DNA from: Pseudomonadota bacterium
GTDB taxonomy: Bacteria; Pseudomonadota; Alphaproteobacteria; Rhizobiales; Kaistiaceae
NCBI GenBank assembly: GCA_023433185.1
Contig: JAEZEN010000204.1
Location: 1-6,183 of the forward strand
Length of the DNA stretch: 6,183 bases
Direction: 5' to 3'
Part shown: in pieces, positions 2-5,799 of the stretch
Position numbering within the stretch: position 1 is the stretch's first letter
Layout of the letters: each line of letters begins with the position of its first letter
Position numbers and translations under genes: made by a program
The notes under the pieces: generated by a model
Databases searched by the model: none
Told to the model about the DNA's origin: nothing
What the model saw: the letters and a program-made list of their open reading frames with translations, nothing else

Positions 2-1174
2 TCAGGGCGTGTAGGCCGTGGGGTCGGCCGGGTTGACGAAGAAGTTGTCGAGGAACGCGGGATCGCTGCCCCAGTTCTCGACGCCGACTTCGTACCAGGC
101 GTCGTTGTCCATGCTGCAGTCGGCCGGCAGCGCCTGCTCGACGGTGGCGTAGTCGATCTTGATCGGATCGACGAGGATCGACTGCACCTTCGGGCCCTGG
201 CCCTGCAGCGTCCGCATCATGATGTTCCAGATCAGCTCGAACTCGTCGCCCGGCGGCCAGAGCTGCCAGGCGGCGCTGATGTAGTCGGGGTTCTGGCGCC
301 AGTAGCAGAGCGCGCCGAGTTCGCCGCCGATCGCCACCGGGATCATGTCGCGGCCGGACTGGAGGAGGGCGCGGAGAACGCCGAGTTCCGCCGCGGACTG
401 GACGACGATGCCGTCGAGCTGCCCGGGGTTGGTGGCGAGCCAGCGCTGGACCTCGCCTTGGGCGACCTGGTCGGTCCACATGCCGGCCACGTCGCCGACG
501 ATGTTGATGCCGGGATACTCTGCCAGCGCCGCCTTGATCCCGCGGTCCTGCGAGTCCGAGCCGGAGGTGCCGGGGATGCCCTGCACGACCATCACGTTGC
601 CCTCGCCGCCGATCTCCTCGGCGAGCCACTTGCCGAGTTCGTAGCCGCCGAGCTGATAGTTGGTCGAGGCGTTCACCGAGTAGGGCGAGGTCAGGTAGCC
701 GGTGAGCGAGAAAACCGGCACGCCACGGTCATAGGCATACTTGACCGACTGGTTCAGCGCCGTCGGGTTCGAGCAGCAGACGATGATGGCGTCCACGCCC
801 TGGTCGACAAGCTGGCGGAGCTGCTGGATCTGCACCGAGTCGTTCAGGTTCGACTGGGTGACGATCACCTCCTTGAGCAGACCGAGATCCTGCCACTTGG
901 GAATGATCTCGTTCTCAAGCCGGTTCATCACCGCCGCGCGCCACGTGTTGCCGGCGTAGGAACTGGCATAGCCGATGGTCCACGGCGGCGGGTTCTTGGC
1001 CTTCCAGTCTACATACGCGCTCGGGCCGATGGGCTGGTCCGGGTCGATCATCTCGGGATTGTAGAGCCGGTCCCGGATATCCTGCGGGATATCGTCGAGC
1101 CCGGCGGCGGCGGCGCTGCTGGCGATGCCGAGCGCGAGGCCGAGCGCGAGCGATAGCTTGCCTAGTGCCTTCAA
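2..1174 (-). CDS. Sugar-type ABC transporter substrate-binding protein (periplasmic)
   Basis: Secreted solute-binding protein of the ribose/rhizopine type (periplasmic-binding-protein-like fold, Peripla_BP_4 group). It would deliver a ligand to an inner-membrane ABC importer. I chose the TTG start at 1174 because GGGAGG lies 5 bases upstream and because it begins a clean signal peptide: K2 and K6, a Leu/Ala/Gly hydrophobic core, and SSAAAA near residues 19-24 as the likely cleavage region. An in-frame ATG at 1246 would add 24 charged residues before the signal and has no good ribosome site. The mature protein (about 366 of 390 residues) shows the family's first strand (WTIGYASSYAGNTW, 65-78), a variant of the usual ISSPTALN loop (IVCCSNPTALN, 131-141) and the hinge-region SDSQDRG (206-212). 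Its promoter carries the same paired operator as the divergent operon. The stop is at the window edge; ATPase and permease genes are not seen and may lie further left. The ligand cannot be told from sequence. Confidence 0.9.
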   Translation of the reverse strand: MKALGKLSLALGLALGIASSAAAAGLDDIPQDIRDRLYNPEMIDPDQPIGPSAYVDWKAKNPPPWTIGYASSYAGNTWRAAVMNRLENEIIPKWQDLGLLKEVIVTQSNLNDSVQIQQLRQLVDQGVDAIIVCCSNPTALNQSVKYAYDRGVPVFSLTGYLTSPYSVNASTNYQLGGYELGKWLAEEIGGEGNVMVVQGIPGTSGSDSQDRGIKAALAEYPGINIVGDVAGMWTDQVAQGEVQRWLATNPGQLDGIVVQSAAELGVLRALLQSGRDMIPVAIGGELGALCYWRQNPDYISAAWQLWPPGDEFELIWNIMMRTLQGQGPKVQSILVDPIKIDYATVEQALPADCSMDNDAWYEVGVENWGSDPAFLDNFFVNPADPTAYTP

Positions 1175-1240: not shown

Positions 1241-1275
1241 GTTCAATTAGATGAACGAGGGTCAGCAAATTGAAC
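1241..1275 (-). promoter_or_regulatory. Paired IclR-type operator upstream of the binding-protein gene
   Basis: Two 16-base sites in tandem, read on the minus strand. The first, GTTCAATTTGCTGACC, covers 1275 down to 1260. The second, GTTCATCTAATTGAAC, covers 1256 down to 1241 and is a near-perfect palindrome with GTTCA/TGAAC arms. Their starts are 19 bases apart. The first overlaps the last two bases of the predicted -10, so a bound protein would cover the transcription start, consistent with repression. The other strand of the second site (GTTCAATTAGATGAAC) matches the site at 2330-2345 at 12 of 16 positions. Paired inverted repeats are the known binding mode of BlcR-like IclR tetramers; that the regulator encoded next door binds here is inference. 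Confidence 0.7.
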
Positions 1276-1302
1276 TATGAATTGTGGTCGAGACTCCGTC
1301 AA
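1274..1302 (-). promoter_or_regulatory. Predicted sigma-70 promoter of the binding-protein gene
   Basis: On the minus strand TTGACG (1302-1297) is followed, after 17 bases, by CATAGT (1279-1274). These match five and four of six consensus bases at ideal spacing. Transcription would start near 1268, inside the paired operator, giving a leader of roughly 95 bases. The promoter lies between the regulator's stop and the binding-protein start, so the binding-protein gene need not depend on read-through from the regulator gene. Confidence 0.65.
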
Positions 1303-1345
1303 GGGCATTGAGGCGGCAGCCGGAGGCGTCGTTACGTCCCCTGTA

Positions 1346-1373
1346 CCGGCGGGGCACGGGATCGGCCCGCCGG
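1346..1373 (-). terminator. Possible hairpin terminator after the regulator gene
   Basis: A perfect 8-base inverted repeat (CCGGCGGG at 1346-1353, CCCGCCGG at 1366-1373) with a 12-base loop begins 7 bases past the regulator's stop codon. An outer 7-base pair, GGCAGCC (1315-1321) and GGCTGCC (1374-1380), flanks it less tightly. No U-rich run follows on the minus strand, so it is not a classical intrinsic terminator. It may act as a weak terminator or protect the mRNA end, or be chance in GC-rich DNA. Confidence 0.35.
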
Positions 1374-1380
1374 GGCTGCC

Positions 1381-2169
1381 TCAAGACTGATGCGGGTCGG
1401 CGCCCAGCCGGACCGAGAGCAGGTCGGCGACCTTGCGGATGTTTCGGGCGATGACGTGCAGCGTCGGCTGGTCGACATCGTGCGAGAGGAACGAGACCGC
1501 GACGCCGGCCACCACCTTGCCGGCAGCGTTGCGGACCGGAGCGCCGAGGCAGGTCATGCCGTCGCGCACCTGCCCGTTGTCGATCGAGAAGCCGCGGTCG
1601 CGGGTCTCCTCGAGTTCCACGAAGAGTGCGTCGAGGTCGGGCACGCTGTTGGCGGTGAGCGGCTGCGGCCAGCGATTGGCCATCATCGCGCGGACGCCGT
1701 CCGTCGGCATCGTGCTCATGATCGCCTTGCCGGTGGCGGTGAAGGGCGCCGGCAGGCGCATCCCGATGCGGAAGGTTATCCCCAGCGGACTGGTGGAATT
1801 GCGGCACGCAATGTACATCACCTCCGCGCCCTCGATTACCGACAGCGTGATCGTTTCCTGCGTCAGCACGTCGGTCTCGTCGAAGACCGAGGTGAACTCG
1901 GTGACGAGGTCGGACGTCGCGGTGAAGGCGTTCGACCAGCGGATGACGTGCGGGCCCATACGGAACGAGTTATCCGGTCGTCGCGCCAGCATGCCGAGGT
2001 CGACCATGGTGGCGCAGAGGCCGTGGACCGTGCTTTTCGGAAGGCCCAGCTGCCGCGCCATGTCCGAAACGGTCAACGCGTTCTCGGCCCTGGTGACCAG
2101 GTCGAGAATGGCGTGAGATCTGACCAGTGCGGGCACGTTGCCGGCGCGCCCGCCGCTCTCCCTCGCCAT
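1381..2169 (-). CDS. IclR-family transcriptional regulator (BlcR-like context)
   Basis: DNA-binding regulator of 262 residues, the usual IclR-family length. An N-terminal winged helix-turn-helix occupies about residues 12-72 (VRSHAILDLV, then LTVSDMARQLGLPKSTVHGL, with the recognition helix near 44-52). A C-terminal effector domain occupies about 85-255 and shows family signatures: TATGKAIMSTM (144-154), RDRGFSIDNGQ (190-200) and MTCLGAPVRNAAG (205-217). I chose ATG at 2169: GAGGAGG sits 4 bases upstream, whereas the adjacent GTG at 2172 would leave only 1 base. It diverges from the lactonase operon and lies upstream of the binding-protein gene; both carry matching paired operators, so it probably represses both and is released by a small ligand. 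In Agrobacterium, BlcR (AttJ), also IclR family, represses the operon holding the lactonase BlcC and responds to succinate semialdehyde. The effector here is unknown. Confidence 0.93.
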   Translation of the reverse strand: MARESGGRAGNVPALVRSHAILDLVTRAENALTVSDMARQLGLPKSTVHGLCATMVDLGMLARRPDNSFRMGPHVIRWSNAFTATSDLVTEFTSVFDETDVLTQETITLSVIEGAEVMYIACRNSTSPLGITFRIGMRLPAPFTATGKAIMSTMPTDGVRAMMANRWPQPLTANSVPDLDALFVELEETRDRGFSIDNGQVRDGMTCLGAPVRNAAGKVVAGVAVSFLSHDVDQPTLHVIARNIRKVADLLSVRLGADPHQS

Positions 2170-2173
2170 CACG

Positions 2174-2180
2174 CCTCCTC
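2174..2180 (-). promoter_or_regulatory. Ribosome binding site of the regulator gene
   Basis: GAGGAGG on the minus strand, 4 bases before ATG at 2169. It favours that ATG over the GTG codon immediately before it. Confidence 0.65.
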
Positions 2181-2283
2181 GGATCGGCCGGACGCAACCG
2201 TGGTCCCCGGTGTGTCCGTGCCGGCTTTCCGCCAGCGAGAACCACTGTGCCGCATGCCCGCGGCCGGCTCCGGGGGGGCGCCC

Positions 2284-2312
2284 TTGACGCTCCGGTCACA
2301 ACGATGCACTAT
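2284..2312 (+). promoter_or_regulatory. Predicted promoter of the hydrolase-lactonase operon
   Basis: TTGACG (2284-2289), 17 bases, then CACTAT (2307-2312). The -35 is identical to that of the binding-protein promoter at the same spacing; the -10 is weaker (three of six consensus bases). It lies in the 375-base gene-free stretch between the divergent regulator and operon. Transcription would start near 2318, inside the paired operator, leaving a leader of about 225 bases before the first well-supported gene. Confidence 0.55.
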
Positions 2313-2335
2313 TCAGCCTGCTGATAACCGTTCAA
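2308..2335 (-). promoter_or_regulatory. Possible divergent promoter for the regulator gene
   Basis: On the minus strand TTGAAC (2335-2330) and AATAGT (2313-2308) are 16 bases apart. If real, this promoter would lie face to face with the operon promoter and be covered by the same operator, so the regulator would repress its own gene. The hexamers partly coincide with the operator repeats, so the match may be incidental. Confidence 0.3.
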
Positions 2336-2345
2336 TATGCTGAAG
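2311..2345 (+). promoter_or_regulatory. Paired IclR-type operator of the hydrolase-lactonase operon
   Basis: Two 16-base sites, ATTCAGCCTGCTGATA (2311-2326) and GTTCAATATGCTGAAG (2330-2345), with starts 19 bases apart. The first overlaps the final two bases of the -10. Position for position this mirrors the operator before the binding-protein gene: TTCA-N4-GCTGA-N5-GTTCA-N6-TGAA is common to both. The second site matches the first site of the other module (GTTCAATTTGCTGACC) at 13 of 16 positions. The overlap with the transcription start suggests repression. Binding by the adjacent IclR protein is inferred. Confidence 0.7.
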
Positions 2346-2434
2346 TGTAATACGCTTTCGCGAGCGTTTCAATCACGCGGCGGCGAACGGACGGCCGGCA
2401 CGGCGGCGCGGGAGGGCGCCGGCAGGGAGGGAAC

Positions 2435-2548
2435 ATGCGGGCGAGACGGCTTCTCGACGGTGCCGGCACGGCAAGCGCCTGCGACGGCCGGCCGTGCTGC
2501 GGTCCCGGGCGTCGCGTTCATGCCCGCGGGCAGGGGACACCGCGATGA
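2435..2548 (+). CDS. Candidate 37-residue leader peptide, translationally coupled
   Basis: A short open frame beginning MRARRLLDGAG and ending QGTPR. It has a good ribosome site (GGGAGGG, ending 3 bases before ATG) and a stop that overlaps the next gene's start as ATGA (2545-2548), the usual sign of translational coupling. The peptide is Arg- and Gly-rich with Cys at 16, 21 and 22 and matches no family I recognise. Its third-position GC (about 72 percent) is lower than in the clear genes, so selection as a protein is doubtful. It could be a leader that primes translation of the operon, or a chance frame in GC-rich DNA. The rest of the leader (2346-2434) shows nothing I can name. Confidence 0.3.
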   Translation: MRARRLLDGAGTASACDGRPCCGPGRRVHARGQGTPR

Positions 2549-2934
2549 CGACGGACCTGAAGCACTGGGCCAACAGGTTCAGGACGCTCACCGACGCCGA
2601 CCCGACCATCGCCGCGATGGGCAAGTACTATACCTGCAGCTTCATGTACGACATGGGGTCCGCCAAGGTCATCGTCGAGATGCACGATGGCAAGGTCAAG
2701 CACATCAACACCGATCCGCAGGCGCTCGATGCCTACGACTTCGCGCTCCGCGCCAGTCCGGCCTCGTGGCGGGAGTTCGCCAAGCCGATGCCGCGCCCGC
2801 ATTTCCACGGCATCTGGGCGGCCAGCTTCCGCGAGGACCTGAAGATCGAGGGCAACATCCTGGTCCTGATGCAGAATCTCCGGAACTTCACGGTCCAGTT
2901 CGAGCTGCTCCGCAAAGCCGGCGTGCCGGTCTAG
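2545..2934 (+). CDS. Small SCP2-like (sterol-carrier fold) protein
   Basis: A 129-residue protein with no signal peptide, so probably cytoplasmic. The pattern resembles the SCP2 lipid-binding fold: a strand and turn with VIVEMHDGKVKHI (42-54), then AYDFALRASPASWREF (63-78) where SCP2 domains have a D-x-x-hydrophobic segment followed by a Trp/Phe helix start. A final segment, GNILVLMQNLRNFTVQFELLRKAG (103-126), resembles the usual closing strand and helix. Family length is about 100-130 residues. This is recognition by pattern, not a search result. ATG at 2545 is chosen because AGGGGA lies 7 bases upstream; a GTG at 2494 in the same frame is possible but adds residues of no recognisable character. 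It heads the operon and is followed 25 bases later by the alpha/beta hydrolase. A role in binding a hydrophobic substrate or product for the hydrolases is inference. Confidence 0.75.
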   Translation: MTTDLKHWANRFRTLTDADPTIAAMGKYYTCSFMYDMGSAKVIVEMHDGKVKHINTDPQALDAYDFALRASPASWREFAKPMPRPHFHGIWAASFREDLKIEGNILVLMQNLRNFTVQFELLRKAGVPV

Positions 2935-2959: not shown

Positions 2960-3814
2960 ATGGCGCGTCACTCCCCGGTTACCGGTCGCTACGTCACCAT
3001 CGATGTCGATGGCCTCGAGTACAAGGTCTTCTACCTCCACAACGGCAAGGGCCAGCCGATCATCTGCCAGCACACCGCCGGCTGCCACAATCACCAGTGG
3101 CGCGGCCTGCTCGAGGACGAGGAGATCACCAAGGACTACCTGGTCATCGCCTACGACCTCGCGCGCCACGGCAAGTCGGATCCGCCGCTCAATGTCGAGT
3201 GGTGGAAGTCGGAGTACAAGCTCACCGCCGACCACTACGTGAACTTCATCGTCGCGCTCTGCGACGCGCTCGAGCTCGAGGACCCGATCTTCATGGGCTC
3301 GTCCTTTGGCGGCAACGTCGCGCTGCAGCTGGCGCTGCGCCGCCCGGACCGCTTCAAGGCCGTCATCCCGGTCGAGGCGGCCCACCATTCGCCGGGCTTC
3401 TTCCTCGACTGGTGGCGCCACCCCCATGCCAATGCGGCCCAGGTGTGCGCGAGCGGCGTGTGGGACCTCATGGCGCCGCAATCGCCGGAGATGGACCGCT
3501 GGCTCACCTGGCATTACTACACGCAAGGTTCCGAGGCATTCAAAGGCGACCTCTACTTCTACTCGGTCGACCACGATCTCCGCGACGAGCTCGACCGGAT
3601 CGACGCCCGCCGCTGCCCGGTGGTGATGATGACCGGCACCTATGACTATCTCACGCCGCCCGAAGCGACCGAGGACACCGCCCGCCAGATCCGGGGCGGG
3701 GTCTATATCGAGATGAACGACATCGGGCATTTCCCGATGAGCGAGAACTACCCGCTGTTCCGGGTGTATCTCAAGGAAGCGCTGCGCATCATCCGCGAGC
3801 GCACGGGCGGGTGA
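2960..3814 (+). CDS. Alpha/beta hydrolase
   Basis: A 284-residue single-domain alpha/beta hydrolase, probably cytoplasmic. The nucleophile elbow is GSSFGG (113-118) with Ser115. The acid is probably Asp229 in TGTYDYLTPP (225-234), in the place where family members read GxxDxxTP. The catalytic histidine is His257 in DIGHFPMSENYP (254-265). The usual His-Gly oxyanion loop is replaced by QHTAGCHNHQWR (37-48), and YDLARHGKSDPP (65-76) matches the family's DxxGxGxSxxP strand and loop. The Trp-rich stretch 151-190 would form the lid over the substrate. Serine esterases, lactonases and C-C hydrolases share these features, so the reaction cannot be fixed; ester or lactone cleavage fits the neighbouring lactonase. 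ATG at 2960 is preceded by the modest ribosome site GGAAAGAGA. It lies 25 bases after the SCP2-like gene and 37 before the lactonase gene, consistent with one transcript. Confidence 0.9.
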   Translation: MARHSPVTGRYVTIDVDGLEYKVFYLHNGKGQPIICQHTAGCHNHQWRGLLEDEEITKDYLVIAYDLARHGKSDPPLNVEWWKSEYKLTADHYVNFIVALCDALELEDPIFMGSSFGGNVALQLALRRPDRFKAVIPVEAAHHSPGFFLDWWRHPHANAAQVCASGVWDLMAPQSPEMDRWLTWHYYTQGSEAFKGDLYFYSVDHDLRDELDRIDARRCPVVMMTGTYDYLTPPEATEDTARQIRGGVYIEMNDIGHFPMSENYPLFRVYLKEALRIIRERTGG

Positions 3815-3851: not shown

Positions 3852-4772
3852 ATGAAGATCGTTGAATTCGGTGACGACGGAAAGCCGATCGAGCGGGACC
3901 GGATCAGGATCGTCGAGTTCGGGCTCGGCACAGAGCCGCGCGAGCCCGCTCCGGCACCGCGGCCCGAGCGCGAGCGCAAGCCCTCCGACATCCAGCTCTA
4001 CATGTTCCAGACCGGGATCCTGCGGACCAGGGTCAAGTTCATCAAGATGAACCAGGGCGACGAGAGCTACGACATCCCGGTGCCGTGGTTCCTCATCAAG
4101 CACCCCAGAGGCAACATCGTCATCGACGGCGGCAACGCGATCGAGGTGGCGCTCGACAAGCGGGCGCACTGGGGCGCGGTCGTCGATGCCTATGATCCGC
4201 TGATGCTGCCCTCGGAGAACTGCGTCGACCAGGCGCGAAGCGTCGGCGTCGCCCCGGAGGACGTGTGCTACGTCCTCCAGTCCCACCTGCACCTCGACCA
4301 TACCGGGGCGATCGGCCACTTCCCGCGCGCGACCCATATCGTCCAGCGCGCCGAGTACGAATATGCCTACCAGCCGGACTGGTTCGCGAAGGGCGCCTAT
4401 ATCCGCGCCGACTTCGACCGGCCGGGGATCGACTGGAAGTTCCTCGGCGGTGACTACACCGACAACTACGACCTCTTTGGCGACGGCACCATCCGGATGA
4501 TCTTCACGCCCGGCCATTCACCAGGGCACCAGTCGTTCCTGGTGACGCTCCCCAATACCGGCCCGGTCCTGCTCACCATCGACGCGGCCTACACGATAGA
4601 CCATTGGAACGACCGGGCGCTGCCCGGGCTGGTCTGCTCCTCGGTCGATGCGGCGCGCTCCGTGGCCAAGCTCCGCAAGATCGCCGCCGACACCGGCGCC
4701 ATGGTGGTGACCGGCCACGACCCCGAGAGCTGGAAGGCCTTCGACAAGGCACCCCTGGCCTTCTACGACTGA
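3852..4772 (+). CDS. Metallo-beta-lactamase-fold lactonase, AttM/BlcC-like (N-acyl homoserine lactonase family)
   Basis: Di-zinc hydrolase that opens lactone rings; relatives act on N-acyl homoserine lactones (AiiA, AttM) and gamma-butyrolactone (BlcC). The metal-binding set is complete: HLHLDH (145-150) gives His145, His147, Asp149 and His150; TPGHSPGH (219-226) gives His222; LTIDAAYT (241-248) gives Asp244 and the substrate-contacting Tyr247; TGHD (287-290) gives His289. As I recall Agrobacterium AttM, long stretches agree: IKMNQG, IDGGNAIEVA, THIVQRAEYEYA, PDWFAKGAYIR, DHWNDRALPG. The core starts near residue 46, so this 306-residue protein carries about 45 extra N-terminal residues, including a repeated IVEFG (3-7, 20-24) and a Pro/Arg/Glu linker. 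No alternative start codon lies at the core boundary except Met51, which would cut into the fold, so ATG 3852 (GGGA 8 bases upstream) is kept. Last gene of the operon. Whether it quenches quorum signals or feeds lactone catabolism is unresolved. Confidence 0.93.
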   Translation: MKIVEFGDDGKPIERDRIRIVEFGLGTEPREPAPAPRPERERKPSDIQLYMFQTGILRTRVKFIKMNQGDESYDIPVPWFLIKHPRGNIVIDGGNAIEVALDKRAHWGAVVDAYDPLMLPSENCVDQARSVGVAPEDVCYVLQSHLHLDHTGAIGHFPRATHIVQRAEYEYAYQPDWFAKGAYIRADFDRPGIDWKFLGGDYTDNYDLFGDGTIRMIFTPGHSPGHQSFLVTLPNTGPVLLTIDAAYTIDHWNDRALPGLVCSSVDAARSVAKLRKIAADTGAMVVTGHDPESWKAFDKAPLAFYD

Positions 4773-4887: not shown

Positions 4888-5799
4888 ATGTTCAAGCTTG
4901 CCCACATCTCCGACCCGCATCTCGGGCCGCTGCCGACGGTGCGCTGGCGCGACCTCGCCTCGAAGCGGGCCTTCGGCTACGTGAACTGGAAGCGCGGCCG
5001 CTCGTCGGCGCTCGGCCCGGAGAGCCTGCAGCGGCTGGTCGCCGACCTCCATGCCGCCCATCCGAGCCACATCGCGGTCACTGGCGACCTCATCAACATC
5101 GGCCTGCCGGCCGAGATCGATGCGGCGCATGTGTGGCTCGCCACGCTCGGCGACCCGCACCGGGTGAGCGTCGTCCCGGGAAACCACGACGCCTACCTGC
5201 CCGGCGCGATGCGCCACTACAGCGACATCTGGGCGCCCTACATGGCCGGCGACGACGGCCATGGCGGCTTCCCCTACGTCCGCCGGCGCGGCCTGGTGGC
5301 GATCGTCGGCACGTCGAGCGCCATCACCTCGGCGCCGCTGATGGCGACCGGGCGGGTCGGCACCGCCCAGTCCGAGGCGATCCGCGAGCAGCTCGAGGCG
5401 CTCGGCCGGGAGGGGCTGTTCCGGGTGGTGCTGATCCACCACCCGCCGGTCTCCGGATCGACGGCCTGGCACAAGCGGCTGACCGATTCGCAGCGCTTCC
5501 GTTCCGTGATCGAGCGGGCCGGGGCGGAACTCGTGCTTCACGGCCACAATCACCTGACGAGCGTCGCCACCATCCCCGGTCCCGCGGGGCCCGTGCCGGT
5601 CGTCGGCGCGACCTCGGCCTCCCTCCACGCCACGCCGGCGCGCCATGGCGGCAGCTATATCCTCTACCGGATCCGGAAGGAGGAGGGCGGCTTCGTCTGC
5701 GACATGGAGGAGCGCGGGCCGCCGCAGGCCGGTGCCGCCATCGGCACGCTGTCGACCCGCCGCCTCGTCGGTGGAGGCGCGTTCAGCCTGGCAGGTTGA
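4888..5799 (+). CDS. Calcineurin-like metallophosphoesterase
   Basis: A 303-residue phosphoesterase with the full two-metal signature in order: SDPHLG (8-13; Asp9, His11), TGDLIN (65-70; Asp67), GNHDAY (98-103; Asn99, His100), LIHHPP (182-187; His185) and LHGHNHL (217-223; His220, His222). It lies in the cyclic-nucleotide phosphodiesterase-like (CpdA-type) part of the family by motif style, but the substrate could equally be another phosphomonoester or diester. The start is fixed by the metal motif at residue 8, although the only purine-rich match, GAGG, abuts the ATG at 4888 and would be a poor ribosome site. A 115-base gap from the lactonase, with no clear terminator or promoter seen in it, leaves open whether it is co-transcribed; I think it is a separate unit. 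Its 3' end overlaps the minus-strand gene by 17 bases. Confidence 0.92.
   Translation: MFKLAHISDPHLGPLPTVRWRDLASKRAFGYVNWKRGRSSALGPESLQRLVADLHAAHPSHIAVTGDLINIGLPAEIDAAHVWLATLGDPHRVSVVPGNHDAYLPGAMRHYSDIWAPYMAGDDGHGGFPYVRRRGLVAIVGTSSAITSAPLMATGRVGTAQSEAIREQLEALGREGLFRVVLIHHPPVSGSTAWHKRLTDSQRFRSVIERAGAELVLHGHNHLTSVATIPGPAGPVPVVGATSASLHATPARHGGSYILYRIRKEEGGFVCDMEERGPPQAGAAIGTLSTRRLVGGGAFSLAG

Follow-up and report, generated by a model that had tools for sequence, protein, structure and literature searches.

We analyzed a 6,183-nt stretch of DNA from an alphaproteobacterium of the family Kaistiaceae (contig JAEZEN010000204.1; hereafter the window), in which a gene for an IclR-family regulator resembling BlcR lies between two promoter-operator modules. 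One module precedes the gene of a periplasmic binding protein, and the other precedes an operon that encodes a small SCP2-like protein, an alpha/beta hydrolase and a lactonase of the AttM/BlcC family (Table 1). In both modules a 17-bp spacer separates the -35 and -10 elements, the -10 element is overlapped by the first of two 16-bp near-palindromes, and the second palindrome starts 19 bp after the start of the first. On the transporter side, read on the minus strand, site 1 is GTTCAATTTGCTGACC and site 2 is GTTCATCTAATTGAAC; on the enzyme side, read on the plus strand, they are ATTCAGCCTGCTGATA and GTTCAATATGCTGAAG.

Table 1. Coordinates of the genes and regulatory features in the window.
Feature	Position	Strand	Remarks
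Periplasmic binding protein (Peripla_BP_4); opens the ABC importer unit	2..1174	minus	stop codon 4-2
Transporter-side promoter-operator	1241..1302	minus	kept in L099, L100, L101
Parts of the transporter-side module	-35 TTGACG 1302-1297; -10 CATAGT 1279-1274; site 1 1275-1260; site 2 1256-1241	minus	
Transporter-side tandem core	1274-1242	minus	
BlcR-like IclR-family regulator gene	1381..2172	minus	Pfam IclR_C and HTH_IclR; best PDB match 3mq0
Enzyme-side promoter-operator	2284..2345	plus	kept in L099, L100, L101
Parts of the enzyme-side module	-35 TTGACG 2284-2289; -10 CACTAT 2307-2312; site 1 2311-2326; site 2 2330-2345	plus	
Enzyme-side tandem core	2312-2344	plus	
Leader of about 200 bp, from operator to first enzyme gene	2346..2544	plus	length similar in L099, L100
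Small SCP2-like protein; opens the enzyme operon	2545..2934	plus	weak Pfam SCP2 match, E 0.068, below cut-off
Alpha/beta hydrolase	2960..3814	plus	Pfam Abhydrolase_1
AttM/BlcC-family lactonase	3852..4772	plus	NCBIfam AHLLactAttM 435.9 bits, cut-off 390

Reading the sequence confirmed to the base the elements and coordinates that an earlier note on this DNA had given for both modules. Three things had escaped the same note: the SCP2-like gene (2545-2934) that opens the enzyme operon, the membership of the lactonase in the AttM/BlcC family, and the larger cluster, beyond the limits of the window, to which a rhodopsin and a flotillin belong.

We scored the tandem sites with the pattern TTCA-N6-TGAA-N5-TTCA-N6-TGAA, which holds 16 core bases. 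Each module scores 15/16, and a score of at least 13 is reached nowhere else in the window. In first-order Markov simulations, using the composition of either the whole window or its intergenic DNA, 4000 window-length sequences contained no site scoring at least 15 under either composition, and sites scoring at least 14 occurred at most 0.00025 times per sequence.

Kinship to BlcR and its operator

The closest solved relative of the window's regulator is BlcR (AttJ) of Agrobacterium tumefaciens (PDB entry 3MQ0), which scored 232.9 bits versus 73.8 bits for the next match, a gap of 159 bits. The two proteins are about 47% identical, and their recognition helices read PKSTVHGL in the window's regulator and PKSSAHGL in BlcR. 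One of the two operators stands upstream of the operon with the lactonase, which has 64% identity with BlcC of A. tumefaciens in a stretch of 258 aa. Because BlcR is the best structural match, the lactonase exceeds the AttM cut-off and its identity to BlcC reaches this level, the pairing of regulator and lactonase is of the BlcR and BlcC type. BlcR is described as repressing blcABC in A. tumefaciens, where it binds upstream of the operon as a tetramer that gamma-butyrolactone (GBL) or gamma-hydroxybutyrate (GHB) releases (PMC6402643), and PMC3907764 likewise describes it as a repressor.

In two A. tumefaciens plasmids (L004, L052), the DNA between blcR and blcA contains the tandem site with a score of 15/16, at the 19-bp spacing and over a CATAGT -10 element, and TTGACA precedes the site by 22 or 23 bp; the blc intergenic region of another A. 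tumefaciens plasmid (L055) has a tandem site of 14/16. Across 30 BlcR-like loci, the window included, the 19-bp spacing gave 25 matches of at least 14/16 and 34 of at least 13 (a few of these matches being overlapping registers of one site), while the other spacings from 14 to 26 bp gave no match of at least 14 and between 0 and 4 of at least 13. In 18 intergenic regions from clusters of the flotillin-associated rhodopsin (FAR) type, some of them closely related, the mean best score is 13.17 at 19 bp versus 9.94–10.61 at 15–18 and 20–24 bp. A site of at least 13/16 stands at the expected place beside the regulator gene in 36 of 44 loci, and 33 of 46 module rows (alternate registers counted) have TTGAC at a distance of 21–23 bp upstream of the first site.

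The earlier note had proposed that the operator sequence may not have been described. This claim fails because the regulator is a relative of BlcR, the same site is present in blc DNA, and tandem IclR sites with 18–22 nt between their centers have been published (PMC8222616). That 2021 survey reports such sites in 94 orthologous groups and reads them as tetramer binding; its group 1 operators share with the window a GTTC...GAAC-type palindrome, the presence of two sites and the distance of 18–22 nt between centers. In its main text, neither BlcR nor any word starting with 'lactone' occurs (PMC8222616). The operator is thus of a known type, and the part that appears new is what it would control.

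What is less usual is that two modules surround one regulator. The window resembles the blc system of A. tumefaciens in its regulator, whose closest solved relative is BlcR, in the predicted control of an AttM/BlcC lactonase and in the tandem TTCA-N6-TGAA sites. It differs in that two operators and two units flank the regulator gene, and in that a sugar-type ABC importer, an SCP2-like protein and an alpha/beta hydrolase are added, whereas blcA and blcB are absent from the window. A comparable arrangement is found at blcABC loci of Rhizobium and Sinorhizobium, where a second BlcR-type operator precedes a branched-chain-type ABC importer (L007, 7190-7222, and L051, 7237-7269, respectively). There, too, the BlcR-like gene has a tandem operator on either side, for the enzymes and the importer respectively, but the importer is of the Liv type and the enzymes are those of blcABC, unlike the window's sugar-type importer and hydrolase set.

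Conservation and extent of the regulon

A genome scan identified three close relatives whose regulators are 78% (a Bauldia metagenome-assembled genome), 67% (Lichenifustis flavocetrariae) and 63% (a Devosia metagenome-assembled genome) identical to the window's regulator. All three have the window's split layout, keep its gene order and retain both modules, with core scores of 13–15/16. When the transporter-side modules of the four genomes are aligned, the invariant columns are 6 of 6 in the -35 element, 0 of 17 in the spacer, 6 of 6 in the -10 element and 13 of 16 in the core. The enzyme-side modules also have 13 of 16 invariant core columns, and their -35 and -10 elements align when a 1-bp difference in spacer length is allowed. 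Each module resembles its own orthologue; three of the four genomes, for example, have GTTCATCTAATTGAAC in their transporter module. The check that the earlier note had asked for, conservation of the paired sites in related genomes, is passed, and it supports the note's proposal that the modules are operators of the IclR protein encoded between them, serving the binding-protein unit and the hydrolase-lactonase unit.

The note had further proposed that the operator defines a regulon of two units. In two of the relatives' genomes (G001 and G002), a scan allowing at most 2 mismatches returned the two flanking sites only. In the Devosia genome (G003) the outcome is less clean: one flanking site has 1 mismatch and the other 3, and one unrelated site also has 3 mismatches. 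An off-register control pattern, with the spacing one base longer, matched neither flanking site in the three genomes. Judged from these pattern matches, a two-unit regulon is supported in two of the three relatives' genomes.

Gene content of the clusters and the lysine-less opsin

The importer operon of all three split-layout relatives contains genes for the binding protein, an ATPase, two permeases, a Bac_rhodopsin homologue and a flotillin. In L100, one of these relatives, a BlcA-like gene (60%) follows the lactonase gene. At 14 further loci the importer and enzyme genes stand together in a single operon, divergent from the BlcR-like gene and behind one operator region. At 12 of these 14 loci the sequence was followed further downstream, and all 12 hold the SCP2-like protein, hydrolase, AttM lactonase, importer, rhodopsin and flotillin in one operon, together with a small membrane protein, a weakly SSF-like protein and a BlcB-like iron alcohol dehydrogenase. 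A BlcA-like dehydrogenase of the succinate-semialdehyde type is present in 8 of the 12, within the stretch read. In Martelella sp. AD-3, the two dehydrogenases are 53% identical to BlcB and 58% identical to BlcA, and the latter passes the cut-off of the succinate-semialdehyde dehydrogenase subfamily. Because of these identities and this cut-off, we conclude that homologues of BlcC, BlcB and BlcA share a row of genes with rhodopsin and flotillin beside a BlcR-type regulator.

Clusters in which a rhodopsin adjoins a flotillin have been described as FAR clusters in the marine Pelagibacterales, HIMB59 and Pseudothioglobus, and their function was left open (PMC10308929). According to that paper, the marine cluster contains a sterol-carrier protein, an inner-membrane translocator, a sodium symporter, alpha/beta hydrolases and iron alcohol dehydrogenases; the marine opsins carry the motifs DTT, DTL and DNI, and the proposed role is to assist a coexisting proton pump. 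The clusters described here share with them the rhodopsin next to flotillin and the iron alcohol dehydrogenase (both in the relatives), as well as an SCP2-like protein and a hydrolase that are orthologous to FAR-cluster genes. They differ in adding a BlcR-type regulator, the AttM lactonase and BlcB- and BlcA-like enzymes, in having opsins with neither a retinal lysine nor a helix-C aspartate, and in that a second rhodopsin was found in none of 12 genomes. The words 'lactonase', 'IclR' and 'ABC transporter' do not occur in the main text of PMC10308929, and no paper joining rhodopsin, flotillin and lactonase was found in the open-access literature. The regulatory and metabolic context of these clusters thus appears to be new.

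The opsin genes (L099, 10136-10861; L100, 13773-14492; L101, 16234-16941; and those of L179-L190) stand beside flotillin in all 15 BlcR-linked clusters, 3 of them split and 12 single-operon. The retinal lysine is replaced in all 15, by arginine in 13 and by leucine in 2, and the helix-C aspartate is replaced by glycine in all 15. No second Bac_rhodopsin was found in any of the 12 genomes with an opsin read, a count in which the genomes may be incomplete and three plasmid-borne clusters are left out. Two genomes with unread operons gave no Bac_rhodopsin (G285) and one located on another contig (G175). Because the lysine and aspartate are lost and no second rhodopsin was found, the opsin would not be aiding a light-driven pump in these 12 genomes; within the limits stated, this argues that the pump-assistance idea of the FAR paper does not fit them.

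We also searched 385 alphaproteobacterial genomes for the window's hydrolase, scoring the best six candidates or fewer per genome, so that misses are possible. At least six genomes, including G001, have it at 83–98% identity, and in all six a rhodopsin gene lies no more than about 8 kb away on the contig of the hydrolase gene. The next best hydrolase (65%) comes from G993, on a contig of 8.8 kb that carries no rhodopsin. In the other five clusters (L162-L166) the gene order is permease, rhodopsin, flotillin, SCP2-like protein and hydrolase, with hydrolase identities of 82–89%, the 82% being found in L165 and L166 from two small AT-rich genomes. Their opsins keep the retinal lysine and stand beside flotillin, and their helix-C motifs, as read from the alignment, are DNI (L165, L166), DTT (L162), DTV (L163) and DTI (L164), in contrast to the DTE of ordinary proton-pump types. 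L165 and L166 come from 1.4-Mb genomes (G1056 and G1133) with 35% GC in the stretches read; each has a second, ordinary rhodopsin, and an AttM homologue (65–66%) lies about 5.7 kb further on. The number of Bac_rhodopsin genes is one in each of G1153, G983 and G1076 and two in each of G1056 and G1133.

Proposed mechanism and alternative explanations

Taken together, the comparisons make it very probable that both modules serve as operators for a BlcR-type repressor, one for the importer unit (with opsin and flotillin) and one for the lactonase unit, and that the locus is a Hyphomicrobiales version of the FAR cluster with a predicted function in lactone or ester uptake and hydrolysis. By its sequence, each module is a sigma-70-like promoter with two TTCA-N6-TGAA palindromes, of which the first overlaps the -10 element. 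In the proposed mechanism, by analogy with BlcR, two repressor dimers would bind side by side on the four half-sites, and such tetramer binding is plausible; the bound repressor would then hide the -10 element and block RNA polymerase at both promoters. Release would be caused by a lactone-derived ligand, which for BlcR is GBL, GHB or succinate semialdehyde. The first unit would supply a sugar-type ABC importer, together with the lysine-less rhodopsin homologue and flotillin by analogy with the three relatives of the same layout, and the second unit would supply the SCP2-like protein, the alpha/beta hydrolase and the AttM/BlcC lactonase. The imported lactone or ester would be hydrolyzed to a hydroxy acid that enters metabolism, in the relatives by way of the BlcB- and BlcA-like dehydrogenases. 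Because an SCP2-like carrier (a weak match) and a hydrolase accompany the lactonase, a substrate bulkier than GBL is suggested. From the gene content, we infer a BlcR-controlled system that may scavenge lactones or hydroxy acids.

Several observations weigh against this interpretation. The window stops at the stop codon of the binding-protein gene, and the ATPase, permeases, rhodopsin and flotillin of the source organism are predicted from the relatives to lie beyond the window's end; no BlcA or BlcB gene lies within the window. In a tree of 46 regulator rows, the regulators of the window, L099, L100 and L101 fall outside the 13-row blcABC clade and also outside the clade of 14 single-operon FAR regulators. 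The blc-type L005, L006 and L097 are likewise placed apart from the 13-row clade; the tree contains a very long outgroup row and a truncated paralogue, and its rooting is unsure and was not used. At 8 of the 44 loci no site of at least 13/16 was found at the expected place (L005, L054, L079, L080, L081, L088, L096 and L098), and six of these are FAR-type loci that reach only 11–12/16 in the same register. The L054 operator is not clearly above shuffled sequences (P = 0.06), the L005 operator scores 12/16, and L088 has nothing near the regulator gene. When 11 single-operon genomes were scanned with at most 2 mismatches, the genome's own cluster was matched only in G207 and G175; seven genomes had matches only elsewhere, and G258 and G681 had none. 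The pattern is unspecific in the single-operon genomes, and therefore we claim no wider regulon there.

The five FAR-type clusters L162-L166, which come from outside this group, also weigh against the interpretation. In the 20 kb read at each, there is no BlcR-like gene, no tandem operator of at least 13, and no BlcB- or BlcA-like gene, and at three of the five the only AttM-like protein is a distant one (31–34%). The case for BlcR control and a lactone function therefore comes from the Hyphomicrobiales clusters, and only by extension do we infer that the marine FAR clusters may act on lactones as well. The chances are evenly balanced that FAR clusters in general serve the uptake and catabolism of lactones or hydroxy-acid esters, switched in Hyphomicrobiales by BlcR-type repressors at tandem operators (a pair of them around the regulator gene in the window's lineage), and that the opsin there has given up any use of light and works as a non-photic membrane part of an assembly of importer and flotillin. 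The presence of a BlcR-type regulator, an AttM lactonase and BlcB- and BlcA-like enzymes in one operon makes FAR function testable in cultured Martelella, Hoeflea and Pararhizobium; Martelella sp. AD-3 and Hoeflea sp. IMCC20628 carry the operon (L188 and L190).

Alternatively, the modules could be generic IclR-family tandem operators whose regulator senses a non-lactone compound, for example an aromatic or sugar acid, with the likeness to blc reflecting ancestry. Tandem IclR palindromes 18–22 nt apart are widespread (PMC8222616), the modest identity to BlcR and the position outside the blcABC clade agree with this explanation, and eight relatives in the family of G003 (Devosia) have other gene neighbors. 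We nevertheless consider it rather unlikely, since BlcR is by far the closest solved relative, the recognition helices are alike, and the target operon includes an AttM/BlcC lactonase, with BlcB- and BlcA-like enzymes in the relatives.

Some IclR-family members are activators, and the second-best NCBIfam model for the window's regulator is the PcaR/PcaU/PobR subfamily, below its cut-off. The sites could then activate, with the regulator recruiting RNA polymerase as PcaU- or PobR-type proteins do. This is improbable, as site 1 lies over the -10 element in both modules, which is a repressor's position, and BlcR is described as a repressor (PMC6402643, PMC3907764). The notion that the modules are a recent duplication without shared regulatory meaning draws on the 34 of 62 bases and the CCCTTGACG start that both have in common, but it can hardly be right when the spacers differ and the pair is kept in all three relatives. 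The comparison of orthologues, in which the spacers have diverged and each module resembles its own counterpart, contradicts a simple recent duplication, which the earlier note had also rejected. Repression by a BlcR-type regulator remains our preferred explanation of both modules.

The tandem operator varies among other loci. In the regulator-SCP2 intergenic regions of L079, L096 and L098, the sites lean toward TCCA...TGGA instead of TTCA...TGAA while keeping the 19-bp register, and the recognition helices of these regulators differ too (AKSS/ARST...HSL). Three palindromes in the 19-bp register are found at L006 (5806-5857) and upstream of the regulator genes of L077 and L083, so that some members may have a longer operator. 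In L085-L092, from the family of G003, the tandem site lies downstream of the BlcR-like regulator gene at 7 of 8 loci, and these regulators may serve another class of targets; next to the site in L089 is a gene that presumably resembles fumarylacetoacetate hydrolase. On a small Pseudochrobactrum plasmid with recombinase and Tn3-family transposase genes (L049), a BlcR-like regulator adjoins an acyl-CoA dehydrogenase and a hydrolase.

Among the window's other features, the start codon of the binding-protein gene was placed from its homologue in L001. The SCP2-like protein is 80–85% identical in the three split-layout relatives and 74–78% in L162-L166; an AlphaFold model from four sequences was poor (predicted local distance difference test score of 52.9), and the SCP2 label refers to the weak Pfam match. 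No Rfam match was found anywhere in the window, the 200-bp leader included. The lactonase has an N-terminal extension of about 45 residues (3852-3990) with a repeated IVEFG motif, which is either a wrong start or an added segment. Downstream of the operon, at 4888-5799, lies a gene for a calcineurin-like phosphoesterase that weakly matches an anti-phage phosphoesterase model (47.3 bits, with a cut-off of 420) and is probably unrelated to the operon.

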